Positions 1,381 through 35,922 of a DNA stretch of 46,861 nucleotides are shown here, piece by piece. Location: NCBI GenBank assembly GCA_028820505.1, contig JAPPIT010000119.1:1-46861 (forward strand), read 5' to 3'. How positions within the stretch are numbered: position 1 is the first letter of the stretch; the number at the start of each line of letters is the position of its first letter. This DNA is from Defluviicoccus sp. GTDB lineage: Bacteria; Pseudomonadota; Alphaproteobacteria; MPNO01. The notes beneath the pieces are model-generated. The model did no database searches. It was not told the origin of the DNA and worked only from the letters and a program-made list of their open reading frames with translations. Position numbers and translations under genes: made by a program.

Positions 1381-2217
1381 TCACAGTCGGCGTTCGAGGA
1401 AGCCGAGGAAGGCGGCGGCGAGCTCGTCCTCGCGCGCGTCCCACTCTTCCAGCGGGTACATCTCGACCTCGTGTTGCACGTGAAACATCTCGAACAGCTC
1501 GGCGTCCGGCATCAGGCGCTGGGCGCGGCGGCCGGTCTCCATCGGGTGGATCCAGTCGCAGCCCGGGATCACGACGACCGGCACGCCGATCGAGGCGAGG
1601 TCGGCGTCGGTCGCGCCGATCACCGGCAGGTCCGCGCCTTCGAGGAAGTAGCGCCGCCAGCGCCCCATCGCCGCGACGAACGCGTCGACCTCCATCGCCA
1701 TCAGCCGGCCGCGGTTGGCCGGGTTGGCCTCGACGATCTCCGCGAAATGCTCGGTCTCCGCCACCGCTTCCATGCCGCCCTCATGCGCGGCCTCGATGAA
1801 CTGGGTGTAGTAGTTGAAGGCGAGCCGTTCCGAGGCGTAACCGCCGCCGGTCACCCGCCAGAGCAGCATCGCGCGCACGCTCCCGGGGTGGCGGAGGCAG
1901 AACAGGATCGAGGTCCGGCAGCCCGACGACGACCCGCCGAGCACGACCGGCAGCGCGCCGAGCTCGCCCAAGAGCGCATGGAGGTCGTCGGCCCACTGCT
2001 CGTATTCCGAGTTGGCGCCGTCGATGGCGAGCGCGGAGGCGCCGCAGTTGCGCCGGTCGTGGATGACGACGCGGTAGCCCGCCTCCGCCATGCGCCCGGC
2101 GAGCGAGCGCACCGCCGCCATCGACCGCCGTCCGCCCGGCATCAGCGCGACCCACGGGCCCGCCCCGCCCACGATCTCGTAGTTGAGGTCGACCCCCCGG
2201 ACCGTCATGCGCGGCAT
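1381..2217 (-). CDS. Alpha/beta hydrolase
   Basis: A 278-residue alpha/beta-hydrolase-fold protein. The nucleophile elbow is seen as LGGSSSGC near residue 100, with a G-x-S-x-S-type turn rather than the commonest G-x-S-x-G. A strand-plus-oxyanion segment ALMPGG is near residue 27 and the late acid/His region includes VVVIPGCDWIHP and FHVQHEVEMYP. The start ATG at 2217 overlaps the stop of the FAD-subunit gene (TGATG), which indicates translational coupling. It may hydrolyse an ester, lactone or ring-cleavage product of the upstream reductase pathway; this is inference from position. The codons for FHVQH contain a parS-like sequence (1472-1487). Confidence 0.85.
   Translation of the reverse strand: MPRMTVRGVDLNYEIVGGAGPWVALMPGGRRSMAAVRSLAGRMAEAGYRVVIHDRRNCGASALAIDGANSEYEQWADDLHALLGELGALPVVLGGSSSGCRTSILFCLRHPGSVRAMLLWRVTGGGYASERLAFNYYTQFIEAAHEGGMEAVAETEHFAEIVEANPANRGRLMAMEVDAFVAAMGRWRRYFLEGADLPVIGATDADLASIGVPVVVIPGCDWIHPMETGRRAQRLMPDAELFEMFHVQHEVEMYPLEEWDAREDELAAAFLGFLERRL
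1472..1487. other. parS: parS-like site, 15/16 match
   Basis: TGTTGCACGTGAAACA differs from the parS consensus at one position (T to G at base 5). It is inside the hydrolase coding region. On its own it would be weak evidence, but it lies 1.05 kb from a perfect site and 4.2 kb from a third. Confidence 0.6.
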
Positions 2218-3185
2218 CAGGCGAGCTCCGCCAGCAGCCTGCGCGCCATCGCGCCCACCACCCGGCGGCGGTACCAGGGCTGGACCGTGGTGGTCCGCAT
2301 CGGCTTCGCCTGGGTCCTGACGGTATCGCGCAGCGCGTCGAGCTGTTCCTCGCCGAGCGGGCCGCCGACGAACGAGTCGATCTTCGCCACCCGGTGCGGG
2401 TACGGGTTGACCGCGGTCAGCGCGATGTCGAGCGCGGCGACCCTGCCGTCCGCCATCTTCAGCGCCGCCGCGACGCCCGCGAGCGGGAAGTCGATCGAGC
2501 CCCGGATGCGCGACTTGCGGTAGCCCGACGGGATCCCCGCGCTCTCCTTCGGCAAGTGCAGCGCCACCAGCAACTCGCCGTCCTCGAGCGCGAGATGGTC
2601 CATCCCGTCGTTGCGGTAGAGCGCGTCGAGCTTCACCCGCCGCCTGCCCCCGGCGCCCGCCAGCGTGACCTCCGCCCCGTGCACCAGCGCCGCCGGCGCG
2701 AGGTCGCCCGAGAAGGCGGCGAAGCAGCGCTTGCCGCCGGGCGCGACGTGGCACACCTCGCCCCGGTGCTTGAGGCAGTAGTCGTTCGATTTCCGCCACC
2801 ATTCGCTCTGGTTGTAGAACAGGCAGCGCGTATCCAGGCAGAGATTGCCGCCGACGGTGCCGTAATTGCGGTGGGTCGGCCCGGCGACCTCGGCGGCGGC
2901 CTCGGCGACCGCGCGGTAGCCGCGTTTCACCGCCCCGTTCGCCGCCACCCCGGAGAGCGGCACCGCGGCGCCGATATCGATCCCGTCCGGGCCGGCGGCG
3001 ATGGCGCCCAGCTCTTCGATGCCGGTGAGGTCGACCAGCGCGGCGGGTCGCTCGATCCCGCGGCGGATATTGACCACCATGTCGGTGCCGCCGGCGAGGT
3101 ATTTCGCGCCGTCGGCCGCGCGCAGCCGGACCGCGTCCTCGACCGTCTCCGGCCGCTCCAGGGTCATCGCGGGCATCAGCTCCAT
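2217..3185 (-). CDS. hcrB: 4-hydroxybenzoyl-CoA reductase beta-like FAD subunit
   Basis: A 322-residue FAD-binding subunit of the xanthine oxidase family (CoxM/HcrB type). FAD-binding motifs are [10 protein letters not shown] (31-40) and [10 protein letters not shown] (110-119). Between the FAD motifs and the rest lies an insert with Cys121, Cys137, Cys145 and Cys154. The spacing (16, 8, 9) equals that of the extra 4Fe-4S cluster ligands I recall for the Thauera enzyme (Cys122, 138, 146, 155). That insert separates ring-reducing aryl-CoA dehydroxylases from ordinary hydroxylases, where the FAD subunit has no cluster. GGAG seven bases before ATG 3185 supports this start; ATG 3176, coupled to the upstream stop, is an alternative. 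It lies in the operon order S-L-M. Substrate specificity is inferred; an uncharacterised relative is possible. Confidence 0.85.
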
Positions 3186-5533
3186 CGGGCGTCTCCCCCG
3201 CCCGCGCGCGCCGCGACCCGGCGGTCGGTCTCCCGCTTCTCCAGGAGCGCCATCAGCCGGTCGGGCGTCAGCGGCAGCTCGGTCGCGCGGACCCCGACGG
3301 CATCCGCCACCGCGCTCGCCAGCGCCGGCAGGAAGTTGGCGAGCGAGGTCTCGCCCGCCTCCTTGGCGCCGAACGGGCCGTGCGGGTCGGCGCTCTCGAC
3401 GATATGGGTCTCGATGGGGGGCGATTCGACGATGGTCGGCACGCGGTAGTCCAGCATGTTGCCGGTGATGCCGAGCCCGTCATGGTAGCGGGTCTCCTCC
3501 GAGAGCGCCTGGCCCATCCCCATCCAGACCGAGCCCTCGATCTGGCCCTCGACCGAGAGCGGGTTGAGCGCCTTGCCGCAATCGTGCGCGACCCAGACCT
3601 TGTCCACCCGGATCTCGCAGGTCTCGGGGTCGACCTCCACCTCGCAGACCAGCGCCGAATAGGCGAACGCCATGGTGCCGCCGATGGCCGCGCCCCGGTA
3701 CTTCCGCCCGCCCCAGGATTCCGGGATGGTGTCGAAAATGCCCTTGACGGCGAGCGTGCCTTCGCCTTCGAGGGCGGCCATCACGACCTCCTTCCAGCTC
3801 AGCCCCTCGTCCTGGGTGCCGGCGCGGTAGGTATCGCCCAGGCACTCGACGTCCTCGGGCTTCACGTCGAGCTTCTTCGCCGCCGCCTCGATCAGCAGCG
3901 CCTTGAGGTTGTTCGCCGCGTCGATCGCCGCGTTGCCCACCATGTAGGTGACGCGCGACGAGTACGACCCGTTGTCCTTCGGCGTGAGCGCGCTGTCCGA
4001 CGCGACGACGTTGATGCGGCTCACGTCGATTCCCAGCACCTCGGCGACGCATTGCGCGAGCACCGTCGACGAGCCCTGGCCGATCTCGGCGGCGCCGGTC
4101 AGGAGCGTCACCGAGGCGTCCCAGTCGACCCGGAGGTGGATCGTCGCGTGCGGCTCGCCGGTCCAGTGCTTGGGCTTGGACGCGCCCGAGATGTAGTGCG
4201 AGCACGCCATGCCGAGCCCGCGGTTCGGGCCGAGCCTGCCCTTGCGCTCCTTCCAGGCGCTCGCCTCCTCGACGATGTCGAGGCATTCGGGCAGCCCGTA
4301 GGAGTTCACCATCAGGTCGTTGGCGGTGAAGCCCGGCGCGGTCATCAGGTTGGCGCGGCGGACGGCGAACGGATCGAGCCCGAGCTCGTCCGCCATCCGG
4401 TCCATCAGGCTCTCGAAGGCGAAGCGGATATTGACCGTGCCGTGGCCCCGGAACGCGCCCGGCGGCGGCATGTTGGTCAGCACCCGGAAGCCCTTGTACT
4501 TGACGTTCTCCAGATCGTAGATCGCGAACAGCATCGAGCCGTTGTAGAGGATGGTGACGATGCCGTAGCCGGAGTAGCCCCCGGCGCGGTGGACGGATTC
4601 GCACTCGACGGCGGTGATCCTGCCGTCCCGGGTCATGCCGATCTTCAGCCTGACCGCGGTCTCCTGGCGTCCGCGGTGGGTGATGAAGGTCTCCTCCCGG
4701 CTCAGCACCAGCCGCACCGTGCCGCGCGCCTTGCGGGCCAAGAGCGCCGCCACCAGCTCGACATGCAGCGCCTCGGTGCGGCAGCCGAACCCGCCGCCGA
4801 CATGGGGCTTGATCACGCGGATGTCGGACTGCTCCATGCCGAGAGTCCGCGCGAGCATCAGATGGACGTAGTAGGGCACCTGGGTCGAGGCGCGGACGGT
4901 CATCCTGCCGCGGCCGGCATCGTACTCGGCCTGGGCCGCGTGCGGCTCGCTCTGGACCTGGCAGACCTCGCCCAGCCGGTAGGTCTCCTCGCGCACCAGG
5001 TCGGCGGCGGCGAAGCCGGCCCCGGTGTCGCCGATCTCGAAATCGACCTCGCGCTCTATATTGCCGGGGCGCTCCTCGTGCAGCTGGACCGCGTCGTCGG
5101 CCCGCGCCTCCTCGGCGGTGAAGTAGGCCGGCAGTTCCTCGTACGCGACCTCGATCGCATCGAGCGCGCGCTGGGCCGTCGCGGTGTCCACGGCGGCGAC
5201 CGCCGCCACCGCCTCGCCGCGATAGCGCACCCGGTCGCGGGCGAGCGCGTACTCGTTCATCGCGATGGGGAGGACGCCGAACGTATCGGCGCAGTCCTGT
5301 CCGGTAACCACGGCATGGACGCCCGGCAGCGCCTCCGCCTTCGAGGTGTCGATGCCGACGATCCGCGCATGCGCCACCGGGCTCCGCAGGATGCGCCCGG
5401 TCAGCTCCTCTTGGGCGATGAAGTCGGCGGTATAGAGCGCCTTGCCCGACACCTTCTCCGGCCCGTCGACCAGCGGCATCCTCACGCCGATCGACCGCAC
5501 CGGCGCGGGCGCGGTTCCCGTCGCGTCGCTCAT
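3176..5533 (-). CDS. hcrA: Molybdopterin-binding subunit, HcrA-like
   Basis: A 785-residue large subunit of the xanthine oxidase family. The N-terminal a/b hammerhead domain ([20 protein letters not shown]) is followed by molybdopterin-binding domains. Landmarks are [10 protein letters not shown], the substrate-channel stretch [22 protein letters not shown], and the catalytic-glutamate loop [12 protein letters not shown] near the C-terminus. The last resembles the GAKEA loop of 4-hydroxybenzoyl-CoA reductases. The ATG at 5533 overlaps the stop of the small subunit (ATGA), and the gene ends ten bases inside the FAD subunit gene, so the three are translated as one operon. The apparent open frame upstream of 5533 is a shadow of the small subunit. 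It should bind the pyranopterin-cytosine cofactor and act in the cytoplasm. Confidence 0.88.
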
Positions 5534-6015
5534 GCCGCTTCCTCCCTGCCCGCGATCTCGTCGGCGGCGGCGCGGACCGCCTCGATGATCTTGACGTAGC
5601 CCGTGCAGCGGCAGATGTTCGCCGCCATCCCGCCCCTGATCGCGTCCACGTCCGGGTCGGGATCGGCGCGCAGCAGCCCCTCCGCCGCCATGATCATGCC
5701 CGGCGTGCAGAACCCGCACTGGGCGCCGAGTTTCACGTGAAACCCTCGCTGGATCGCCGACAGCCGCCCCGAAATCTCCAGCGACTCGATCGTCTCGACC
5801 CGCGCGTCCCCGCAGGTATTCGCGAGCGTCAGGCAGGAATGGCGCGGCCGGTCGTCGACCAGCACCGTGCAGGCGCCGCATTCGCCGCCGTCGCAGCCGA
5901 TCTTGGTGCCGGTCAGCCCCGCGACCTCGCGCAGATAGTCCACCAGCAGCATGTTGTCGGCGACCACGTCGTCGCGCCGCCGCCCGTTGAGCGTAAGCGA
6001 CAATACGGTCTTCAT
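5530..6015 (-). CDS. hcrC: 2Fe-2S subunit, HcrC/CoxS-like
   Basis: A 161-residue small subunit carrying two 2Fe-2S clusters. The plant-ferredoxin-type cluster uses Cys41, Cys46, Cys49 and Cys61 ([12 protein letters not shown]). The C-terminal cluster uses Cys100, Cys103, Cys135 and Cys137 (QCGFCTPGM and CRCTGY). The start at 6015 is fixed by a strong GGGGGAGG ribosome site; the longer frame upstream translates promoter DNA and a REP. It is the first gene of the operon and lies behind a divergent promoter region shared with marR. The codons for GFHVKL contain a 14-bp perfect parS core (5730-5743). Confidence 0.92.
5729..5744. other. parS: parS-like site, perfect 14-bp core
   Basis: AGTTTCACGTGAAACC has the complete core palindrome GTTTCACGTGAAAC; only the two outer bases differ from the 16-bp consensus. 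It is embedded in the hcrC-like coding region. parS sites inside genes are known in other bacteria. Confidence 0.65.
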
Positions 6016-6054
6016 GCCTCCCCCCTTGCCGGTCGTGGCGATAATATGACCGCA

Positions 6055-6091
6055 GCAATAATTGACTTGAACAACAATGTCAATGTAGAAT
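6055..6091. promoter_or_regulatory. Divergent promoters with candidate MarR operator
   Basis: ATTGAC (6061-6066) and GTCAAT (6079-6084) form a perfect 6-bp inverted repeat with a 12-bp centre. On the plus strand TTGACT (6062-6067) and TAGAAT (6086-6091), 18 bases apart, make a good sigma-70-type promoter toward marR. On the minus strand the same dyad supplies a perfect TTGACA (6083-6078), with a weaker TATTGC (6060-6055) 17 bases on, pointing at the reductase operon. A repressor bound to the dyad would cover both promoters. Binding by the adjacent MarR protein is inferred from position. Confidence 0.6.
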
Positions 6092-6156
6092 GTGCAGTGG
6101 GAAAGGAATTTCGAGCCCCGCCATGCCCGACGAACCCGGTATCCCGTTCTCCCACC

Positions 6157-6269
6157 CGTCATGCCCGGACTTGTTCCGGACATCCACGTCGCTCCGCCGC
6201 CTCGCCCTCTCCCGGCTCGTACCGCGATGCCGCAAGACGTGGATGCCCGGAACAAGTCCGGGCATGACG
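6157..6269. repeat. REP family A, copy 2, in the marR leader
   Basis: Arms at 6157-6189 and 6237-6269 are reverse complements with one mismatch (GACA for GGCA in the left arm). The element lies between the predicted marR promoter (6062-6091) and the marR ATG (6314), so it would be part of the 5' untranslated RNA. Confidence 0.85.
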
Positions 6270-6313
6270 ACCGAGGGGGAACGGCGGGGGCGCGGGGAAC
6301 GGCGCGCGAGCCC

Positions 6314-6772
6314 ATGACGCAGGACACCGGCCTCGGCATCCTGCCCGGTCTGCTGGGCTATCAGCTCCGCCATGCCAACCTGAAGGTGGTGGGCGGGTTC
6401 GCGGAACGGATCGCGCCGCACAACGTCACCGCGGCCCAGTTCGGCCTGCTGGTCCTGGTCGCCGCCAATCCCGGCGCGACCCAGGCGGCGCTCGCCCGCG
6501 CCTTCGGGACCGACCGTTCGGTGATGGTGCGGCTGATCGACCGGCTGGAGGCGGCGGGGCTGGTCGACCGGCGCGCGCGGGAGGGCGACCGGCGGTCCAA
6601 CGCGATCCTGCTCACCGAACGCGGCGCGGCGCTGCTGGAGACGCTGAAGCGCGAGGTCCGCGCGTTCGAGGAGGGGGTGACCGCCTGCCTCACCGCGGAG
6701 GAGACCGAGACCCTGCTCGCCCTCCTGCGCCGCGTCAATGCCTCGGGCGACGGACGGGAGAAGCGGAAATGA
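6314..6772 (+). CDS. MarR family transcriptional regulator
   Basis: A 152-residue winged-helix regulator. The core helix-turn-helix (TQAALARAFGTDRSVMVRLI) and wing (EGDRRSNAILLTERG, with the D-x-R signature) lie at about residues 55-105. Helical ends would form the dimer interface. MarR proteins are usually repressors released by an aromatic ligand or its CoA ester. ATG 6314 was chosen because everything upstream in frame translates a REP; its ribosome site is weak. The gene overlaps the thioesterase gene by ATGA and faces the aryl-CoA reductase operon, so that operon is the likely target. A relic of the 3' end of a second copy lies at 46227. Confidence 0.88.
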   Translation: MTQDTGLGILPGLLGYQLRHANLKVVGGFAERIAPHNVTAAQFGLLVLVAANPGATQAALARAFGTDRSVMVRLIDRLEAAGLVDRRAREGDRRSNAILLTERGAALLETLKREVRAFEEGVTACLTAEETETLLALLRRVNASGDGREKRK

Positions 6773-7188
6773 AGACCTGGCGCGCCCGGTTCTTCGCCGC
6801 GTGGTCGCAATGCGACGCGGCCGGAATCGTCTTCTATCCCCACGTCTATGTCTGGTTCGACGAGGCGACCGAGAACCTGTTTCGCGCCAACAAGCTCGGC
6901 TATCCGGAACTCGAGAGCGAGCTTGGCCTGAGCGGCATGCCCCTGGTCGAGACCGGGGCGACCTACCGCAACCCGTGCAGGCTGGGCGACGCGCTGGAGA
7001 TCGAGACCTGGGTCGACGACTGGGGAAAACGGTCCTTCCTGGTCCGCCACGTCGTGCGGCACAAGGACGGGGCGGTCGCGCTCGAAGGCTTCGAACGCCG
7101 CGTCCTGGTGGCCCCCGACCCCGGCCATCCGAAGGGCATCCGCGCGATCGAGATCCCCGCCGCCGTGATCGCGCGGTTCGTCGATTGA
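6769..7188 (+). CDS. 4-hydroxybenzoyl-CoA thioesterase family protein
   Basis: A 139-residue single hotdog-fold thioesterase. The stretch CDAAGIVFYPHVYVWFDEA (15-33) carries the catalytic Asp16, matching Asp17 of the Pseudomonas 4-hydroxybenzoyl-CoA thioesterase as I recall it. Similarity extends over the length, including DALEIETWVDDWGKRSFLVRH and the C-terminal RAIEIPA. It would release an aryl acid from its CoA ester in the cytoplasm. Coupling to marR and divergence from a 4-hydroxybenzoyl-CoA-reductase-like operon support an aryl-CoA substrate. YbgC-like acyl-CoA thioesterases are more distant relatives and remain possible. Confidence 0.85.
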   Translation: MKTWRARFFAAWSQCDAAGIVFYPHVYVWFDEATENLFRANKLGYPELESELGLSGMPLVETGATYRNPCRLGDALEIETWVDDWGKRSFLVRHVVRHKDGAVALEGFERRVLVAPDPGHPKGIRAIEIPAAVIARFVD

Positions 7189-34860: not shown

Positions 34861-35922
34861 ATGGGGCTGACGCGAGACGACATACCGGCGGCGGTGCAGG
34901 CCCTTGTCCGGCGCGGCACCGTCATCCCGGCCCATCCTCTGGCGCTCGACCGCGATCGCGGACTCGATGCGCGGCGCCAGCGCGCGCTCACCCGCTACTA
35001 TCTCGATGCCGGCGCGGGCGGGCTCGCCGTGGGCGTTCACGCGACCCAGTTCGCCATCCGCGAGGCCGGGCTCTACGAGACCGTTCTGGAGCTTGCGGCC
35101 AAGACGGCCGACGAGTGGACCGACCGGCCGGTCGCGATGATCGCCGGGCTCGCGGGGCGCACCGGGCAGGCGGCAAGCGAGGCGAAGACTGCGGTCGGGC
35201 TCGGCTACCACGCGGGGCTTTTGAGCCTCGGCGCGTTGAAGGACGATACCGAGGACGAGCTGGTCGCGCATTGTCGCCGGGTCGCGCAGGAAATCCCGCT
35301 GGTCGGCTTCTATCTCCAGCCGGCGGTCGGCGGCCGGCCCCTGTCCGCTTCGTTCTGGCGGCGCTTCGCCCAAATCGACAACGCGATCGCGGTCAAGGCG
35401 GCACCGTTCGACCGCTACCGCACTCTCGACGTGGTGCGCGGCATCGTGGAGGCGGAAGCGGAGGACCGGATCGCGGTCTATACCGGCAACGACGACCACA
35501 TCGTGCTCGACCTCGCGGTGCCGGTCGCGGTCCGGCGGCGCGGCGCGGAGGTCCGCGTCCGCATCCGCGGCGGGCTGCTCGGCCATTGGAGCGTCTGGAC
35601 GAAGCGCGCCGTGGAGCTCCTGGAACGGGTCCGCGCGGCGACCGAGGCGGGCACCGTCGACGAAGACCTCCTCGCGCTCGATTCCCGCGTCACCGACTGC
35701 AACGGCGCGGTCTTCGACGTCGTCAACGGGTTCAGGGGCTGCATCGCCGGGTGTCACGAGATCCTCCGGCGTCAGGGCCTGCTGGAAGGCATCTGGTGCC
35801 TCGATCCCGCCGAGACGCTGAGCCCCGGCCAGGCGGAGGAAATCGACCGCGTCTGCGCCGCCCATCCCGATCTCGCCGACGACGATTTCGTCGCCGCGAA
35901 CCTGGAGCGCTGGCTGGCGTAG
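34861..35922 (+). CDS. DHDPS/NAL-family class I aldolase
   Basis: A 353-residue TIM-barrel aldolase of the dihydrodipicolinate synthase family, longer than DapA itself because of a C-terminal extension. The Schiff-base lysine is in NAIAVKAAPFDRY (about residue 179), and GLAVGVHATQF replaces the usual GTTGE motif. It would cleave or form a pyruvate-linked 2-keto acid. It is divergent from the LigI-like amidohydrolase, suggesting one pathway for lactone opening and keto-acid cleavage; this is inferred. Confidence 0.8.
   Translation: MGLTRDDIPAAVQALVRRGTVIPAHPLALDRDRGLDARRQRALTRYYLDAGAGGLAVGVHATQFAIREAGLYETVLELAAKTADEWTDRPVAMIAGLAGRTGQAASEAKTAVGLGYHAGLLSLGALKDDTEDELVAHCRRVAQEIPLVGFYLQPAVGGRPLSASFWRRFAQIDNAIAVKAAPFDRYRTLDVVRGIVEAEAEDRIAVYTGNDDHIVLDLAVPVAVRRRGAEVRVRIRGGLLGHWSVWTKRAVELLERVRAATEAGTVDEDLLALDSRVTDCNGAVFDVVNGFRGCIAGCHEILRRQGLLEGIWCLDPAETLSPGQAEEIDRVCAAHPDLADDDFVAANLERWLA

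Follow-up and report, generated by a model that had tools for sequence, protein, structure and literature searches.

A putative MarR operator overlapping divergent promoters at a 4-hydroxybenzoyl-CoA reductase locus of Defluviicoccus

Introduction

Could a single repressor dimer, bound at a single site, silence both a regulator gene and the catabolic operon that diverges from it? The question is raised by a short segment (6055-6091) of the 46,861-bp stretch of Defluviicoccus sp. DNA analyzed here (the window), which is part of a 5.49-Mb draft genome (G000). The segment is flanked by hcrC, which starts at 6015 on the minus strand, and by marR, which starts at 6314 on the plus strand. An initial annotation had described a dyad there, ATTGAC-N12-GTCAAT, as the source of the -35 elements for both directions and as a site at which one MarR dimer could silence both. 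The enzyme encoded by hcr genes, which carries out the reductive dehydroxylation of 4-hydroxybenzoyl-CoA, is known mostly from anaerobes.

Several regulators offer precedents. According to the available portions of the report on CouR of Rhodococcus jostii RHA1 (PMC4737184), one inverted repeat covers both divergent -35 boxes at couN/couR, the operator reads ATTGA-N5-TCAAT, and p-coumaroyl-CoA abolishes DNA binding. The CouR of Rhodopseudomonas palustris is a repressor released by p-coumaroyl-CoA, as stated in the accessible part of PMC9594313. BadR of Aromatoleum sp. CIB and R. palustris is presented in excerpts of PMC9795900 as a MarR repressor of CoA-linked ring catabolism that is released by a CoA thioester; its operators, CAAT-N2-ATTG, lie over the -35 boxes of divergent promoters, cyclohexane carboxylate genes are regulated, and a half-site spacer of 2 to 4 bp is tolerated but one of 6 is not. 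For Saro_0803, the sections available of PMC10046596 give a 22-bp AT-rich binding site in the neighbouring nov1 promoter, an inverted repeat GCAATA-N6-TATTGC at the -10 box, and resveratrol as the effector.

Results

The locus and its genes

The features of the locus are listed in Table 1. The left operon, hcrCAB, appears from profile matches to encode a 4-hydroxybenzoyl-CoA reductase, the alpha subunit scoring over its cut-off and the beta and gamma subunits just under theirs. The best solved relative of hcrB is 1rm6_B, the beta subunit of a known 4-hydroxybenzoyl-CoA reductase (E 9.7e-84), and the cysteines of the inserted loop are retained in the alignment of the two; such cysteines hold an Fe-S cluster.

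The product of marR belongs to the MarR family, with both Pfam models above their curated cut-offs. Among solved chains its profile is nearest to CouR 6c28 (3.1e-30), which we take to be from Rhodopseudomonas palustris, followed by SlyA (4.8e-16). Its best NCBIfam match is the Saro_0803 model, and at 81.2 bits against the 200 required we ruled it out as an equivalog of that protein.

Table 1. Coordinates of genes, candidate promoter elements and repeats at the hcr-marR locus of the window
Feature	Position	Strand	Remarks
hcrB, beta subunit (FAD)	2217..3185	-	TIGR03195 401.2 bits, just under cut-off 404.55
hcrA, alpha subunit	3176..5533	-	TIGR03194 1140.4 bits, over cut-off 994.55
hcrC, 4-hydroxybenzoyl-CoA reductase gamma subunit (2Fe-2S)	5530..6015	-	TIGR03193 240.7 bits, just under cut-off 257.8
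Candidate -10 of hcr promoter, TATTGC	6055..6060	-	Weak (3/6 letters); 17-bp spacer; TATTGC/GATTGT/TATTGC/TATCAC in window/G004/G003/G005
Candidate MarR operator, ATAATTGAC-TTG-AACAACAAT	6058..6078		Centre 6068; ideal half-site ATTGTTGAC; from half-site model
Dyad of the initial annotation, ATTGAC-N12-GTCAAT	6061..6084		Exact; centre 6072.5; ATTGAC 6061-6066, spacer 6067-6078, GTCAAT 6079-6084
Candidate -35 of marR promoter, TTGACT	6062..6067	+	Within left half of candidate operator; TTGACT or TTGACC in 4/4 species
Candidate -35 of hcr promoter, TTGACA	6078..6083	-	Dyad right arm; invariant in 4/4 species
Candidate -10 of marR promoter, TAGAAT	6086..6091	+	18-bp spacer; TAGAAT/TATATT/TAAAAT/TAGAAA in window/G004/G003/G005
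REP-like palindromic repeat	6157..6269		Within ~220-nt marR leader; 34-nt arms 97% complementary; strong predicted RNA fold
marR, CouR-like MarR regulator	6314..6772	+	PF12802 60.7 bits (cut-off 27), PF01047 51.7 bits (cut-off 24.6)
4HBT-type acyl-CoA thioesterase gene, 3' of marR	6769..7188	+	PF13279 and PF03061 over cut-off

The candidate marR promoter lies about 220 nt ahead of its gene with the REP-like repeat in between, and leaders vary among species: in G004 (L003) about 700 nt of repeats and a GIY-YIG-like ORF, recognized by eye, separate promoter from gene. The palindrome of the window has a predicted RNA fold of -129.1 kcal/mol (z -6.8) and might lower marR expression. CGTCATGCCCGGACT recurs in the window at 2, 31517 and 31634, and its complement is found at 99, 31732 and 31897. 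The window had no Rfam match at gathering scores.

The dyad and the overlapping promoters

The dyad is present letter for letter where it was described, and it occurs at a single place in the 5.49-Mb genome of the window. Allowing up to one mismatch, TTGAC-N12-GTCAA matches the window twice (the exact dyad and a mismatched copy at 35375) against 0.21 expected, and at least two matches were found in 2 of 100 shuffles. Inverted repeats of this general form are common by chance, however: the intergenic region (6016-6313) holds five dyads with 6-bp arms and spacers of 0-20 bp against a shuffle mean of 2.4, with as many in 79 of 500 shuffles, and the one dyad seen in 6040-6110 is equalled by at least one in 92 of 500. 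By shuffling, the 6+6 dyad is by itself not significant.

The claim that the dyad provides both -35 elements is supported by the sequence. The candidate marR promoter is the only sigma-70-like match of a promoter scan of 5950-6330 (10 of 12 letters; shuffles averaged 0.2); the same scan did not call the candidate hcr promoter, whose -10 is weak. The pair of overlapping -35 regions is kept in all four species that have the locus. Two TTGAC hexamers facing each other head-on automatically make an inverted repeat, which is probably why one stands at 6061-6084. The trap is a general one, since any such pair of -35 hexamers can be mistaken for an operator.

Conservation among relatives

We compared five genomes of the genus, the window genome, G002, G003, G004 and G005, and found the locus in all except G002. 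The leaders of the four loci differ wildly, yet TTGAC-YTNNR-CAACAATGTCAA is kept in every one, with TTGAC and CAACAATGTCAA invariant. All 12 of the 12 columns of 6072-6083 are invariant, as are 18 of 22 in 6062-6083 and 15 of 21 in 6058-6078; the flanks reach 11 of 39 (6019-6057) and 6 of 59 (6092-6150). It is this conservation, and not the occurrence of a dyad, that goes beyond chance. The outermost pair of the arms (A6061 and T6084) is retained in two of the four loci. When six genomes were scanned with the conserved block TTGACN5CAACAATGTCAA, matches without mismatch were found only at the hcr-marR loci of G000, G003, G004 and G005; G001 had one match with two mismatches, the other listed matches had three, and the reversed control also matched in G003, G004 and G001.

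G001, which belongs to another genus, is informative about the right arm. Its 10.7-kb contig carries marR and the thioesterase gene, and the divergent gene looks CoA-transferase-like by eye; neither hcrC nor hcrA was found on this contig. Upstream of this marR the GTCAA arm is missing. Since the arm is missing where marR has no neighbouring hcr, it seems to belong to the hcr promoter and not to the operator; GTCAAT is thus probably the hcr -35.

All four genus members with the marR and hcr locus also have boxC with a site of the kind described below. In G002, which is 89% complete, the MarR matches were all more distant (3.7e-30 at best), and searches for an orthologous marR, for boxC and for an operator-like site found none of them.

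A second palindrome within the promoter overlap

An independent view of the site comes from a half-site model (ATTGTTGAY) built from eight sites at other promoters, none of them from an hcr-marR locus. The eight were taken from 33 exact places of ATTGTT-N7-10-AACAAT and comprise the four boxC sites, two places in G019, G021:C5 and G026:C33; the 25 places left out are chiefly hcr sites of the class and places whose inner bases do not resemble TTGA. The model sites were picked after a likeness between the window site and the boxC site had been noted by eye, so the test was not blind.

Over the 46.9-kb window, the best score of this model is 18.3 at 6058-6078, with a runner-up of 3.2; a model from only the four other-genus sites gave 20.7 at the same place and 4.0 for the runner-up. 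The score of 18.3 was reached in none of 1000 shuffles of 6016-6313 and in 5 of 2000 shuffles of an AT-rich 71-bp stretch that kept its composition. Among gaps of 0-15, a gap of 3 was best in the intergenic region. When the window and 15 other loci were covered in 286,928 placements, only known motif places outscored 6058-6078. Once gaps of 1-4 are allowed, scores of 16-22 are also reached at a few unrelated places in other loci, among them L117 (21.9), L169 (18.2 with gap 4) and L123 (17.3), so that some equal the window site.

The intergenic stretches of G003 (18.1), G004 (18.3), G005 (23.7) and G001 (17.1) all have their best match in this register too. In G001 the site that remains is degenerate, its left half perfect and its right half poor (-1.2 of the 17.1). 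In the window each half shares 7 of 9 letters with the ideal half-site, and the total is half the 36.8 of the boxC site, which is itself in the training set. On this evidence the 21-bp pseudo-palindrome at 6058-6078, which overlaps the dyad, is the better-supported candidate and most likely the operator, and the 24-bp dyad probably does not fill that role: the model centres the operator at 6068 and leaves the right arm outside it. Two other descriptions of the site were dropped. A third symmetry axis near 6075.5, ACAACAATGT, seen by eye, was good in G005 only, and a 19-bp pattern allowed up to three mismatches was lost in noise (56-157 places per genome, against 15-40 for controls).

The boxC site and the wider motif

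In the window genome, ATTGTT-N7-10-AACAAT occurs at one place, upstream of boxC, and G003, G004 and G005 each have it at the orthologous position; TTGTTGA-N4-TCAACAA with up to two mismatches also has one place in that genome, at boxC. The boxC product, 2,3-epoxybenzoyl-CoA dihydrolase, scores 916.3 bits against a cut-off of 712.3. In G003 boxC is followed by boxB (852.6 bits), and in the window genome by an ORF with the same start. At L148 (G000:C97) boxC diverges from a CoA-ligase-like gene, with the motif between them. Hence hcr and the oxygen-dependent box pathway co-occur in one genome. In all four species TTGACA of the boxC motif fits a -35, followed after a 17-bp spacer by TAAATC, CAAATC, TAAATA and TAAATA in G000, G003, G004 and G005. 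The sites of the genus, all of them training sites, score 29.6-37.0. Outside the training set, the regions upstream of boxC score 23.9 in G001 and in G026 and 18.0 in G017 and G013, in these two well away from the start of the gene; G021 and G019 showed no good site for the half-site model there (maxima 10.8 and 8.0).

Beyond these genomes, 7 of 28 regions upstream of hcrC in other genomes of the class contain an exact ATTGTT-N8/9-AACAAT (L061, L063, L064, L067, L069, L070 and L071), and L072 contains an imperfect form. We inspected 20-kb stretches around eight hcr operons of the class, chosen mostly for showing the palindrome: seven have exactly one copy, before hcrC, and a related MarR was found beside the operon, within about 10 kb, in none of the eight. 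In G027, G010 and G017 (L142, L143, L145 and L146) the palindrome precedes genes that by eye resemble 2-oxoacid:ferredoxin oxidoreductase and CoA ligase genes, possibly marking a wider aryl-CoA regulon.

The motif and the MarR group

Among 27 genomes of the order, 19 have a related MarR (E at most 1e-25). By hand count, TTGTTGA-N4-TCAACAA with up to one mismatch occurs in 16 of the 19, but also in 4 of the 8 genomes without a related MarR, and the exact motif in 6 of 19 and 0 of 8. The reversed control also matches in G006, G007 and G009, which include two of the four MarR-less genomes with sites. In 5 of the 19 the distance between a site and the MarR gene is about 4-12 kb: G009, G010, G013 and G017, all of one genus, and G026. 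For MarR homologues elsewhere in the class (L055-L058) no similar upstream site was seen by eye. The survey ties the MarR group to the motif on sequence grounds and does not separate the adjacent MarR from a paralogue; the window genome has one, G000:C176, which shows about 45% identity and has a recognition helix resembling that of the adjacent MarR.

Alternative explanations

The adjacent MarR need not be the protein that binds. A paralogous or unlinked MarR, of the group with recognition helix FDRSTLVQIIDRLE (G000:C176), might instead bind at 6058-6078 and at boxC and leave the adjacent MarR to bind elsewhere. Three genomes with strong sites (G019, G021 and G026) have only one MarR at E 1e-25 or better, of the paralogue type, and in G026 a site lies 3.9 kb before that gene. 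Yet G002 has the paralogue and no exact or one-mismatch site, and in G000, G003, G004, G005 and G001 a site stands upstream of an adjacent-type marR; we regard the paralogue as an improbable binder. It is less probable still that the segment holds no repressor site and that the divergent promoters simply exclude each other by competing for RNA polymerase. Their overlap should leave hardly any room for two polymerases, and conservation of the -35s alone would account for the arms, but most of the invariant CAACAAT (6072-6078) is spacer for both promoters, and spacers need no fixed letters; moreover, the half-site model, built elsewhere, matches here.

That same CAACAAT is left unexplained if the 24-bp dyad is the operator of one MarR dimer. 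This reading draws on the invariance of TTGAC and GTCAA in four of four species and on the uniqueness of the dyad in its genome. Nevertheless, the facing hexamers yield the symmetry without any repressor, dyads of this size are frequent by chance, the right arm is absent in G001, and no second copy of the conserved block turned up in six genomes at 0-1 mismatches, so we think it unlikely. Its gap of 12 bp also exceeds those of Rhodococcus CouR (5), BadR (2-4) and Saro_0803 (6) as given in the available parts of those papers, a weak argument, as the spacer depends on the half-site length drawn and the site at 6058-6078 itself has a gap of 9 when drawn with 6-bp arms.

We therefore favour, with a probability of roughly two in three, overlapping divergent sigma-70-type promoters sharing one operator, at 6058-6078, for the adjacent CouR-like MarR repressor, with release by an aryl-CoA.

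Discussion

What the sequence itself supplies is a pair of candidate promoters, their conservation and a motif shared with another promoter; from these we infer MarR binding, repression, an effector and start sites. With no effector present, a MarR dimer bound at 6058-6078 would lie over the marR -35 and take up the spacer of the hcr promoter, and would so silence its own gene (with the thioesterase gene) and the reductase operon hcrCAB. An aryl-CoA thioester, such as 4-hydroxybenzoyl-CoA or a precursor, would release the dimer, after which the two promoters would compete for polymerase. Repression at boxC would work alike, its motif TTGACA fitting the -35. The dyad would then be a side effect of the facing -35s, its left arm lying within the operator and its right arm being the hcr -35. 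Since a single dimer would still cover both promoters, the functional idea of the initial annotation, that regulator and target are silenced together, mostly stands; what falls away is the dyad as the place of binding. The interpretation is partly supported, apparently right in kind and off in the exact site.

As in the available account of Rhodococcus CouR (PMC4737184), a MarR repressor and one operator over two -35s, both putative in the window, go with divergent regulator and catabolic genes; that CouR serves hydroxycinnamate catabolism, whereas the target here is a 4-hydroxybenzoyl-CoA reductase, and the candidate operator differs from ATTGA-N5-TCAAT. With CouR 6c28, the nearest solved chain, the likeness noted here is one of protein sequence. 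BadR, in the excerpts of PMC9795900, shares CoA-linked ring catabolism and a site over divergent -35s but differs in its operator, CAAT-N2-ATTG, and in its cyclohexane carboxylate target. Saro_0803, whose model is the best NCBIfam match though under cut-off, has its repeat at the -10 box in the available text of PMC10046596. The architecture of one operator and two promoters is thus already known; the hcr-marR locus is a new member. Among the matches listed, the titles and abstract openings on hcr or the box pathway describe no MarR operator at an hcr operon.

The hcr/marR and boxC sites probably form one small regulon, as their common motif suggests. More tentatively, a CouR-like aryl-CoA sensor may run a two-site regulon that joins hcr to the box pathway (boxC-boxB). 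Its operator would be weak at hcr/marR and strong at boxC, and the two steps would then switch on at different effector levels; we hold this possible but doubtful. What the analysis offers for a 4-hydroxybenzoyl-CoA reductase is a defined candidate operator together with a likely regulon of two promoters.
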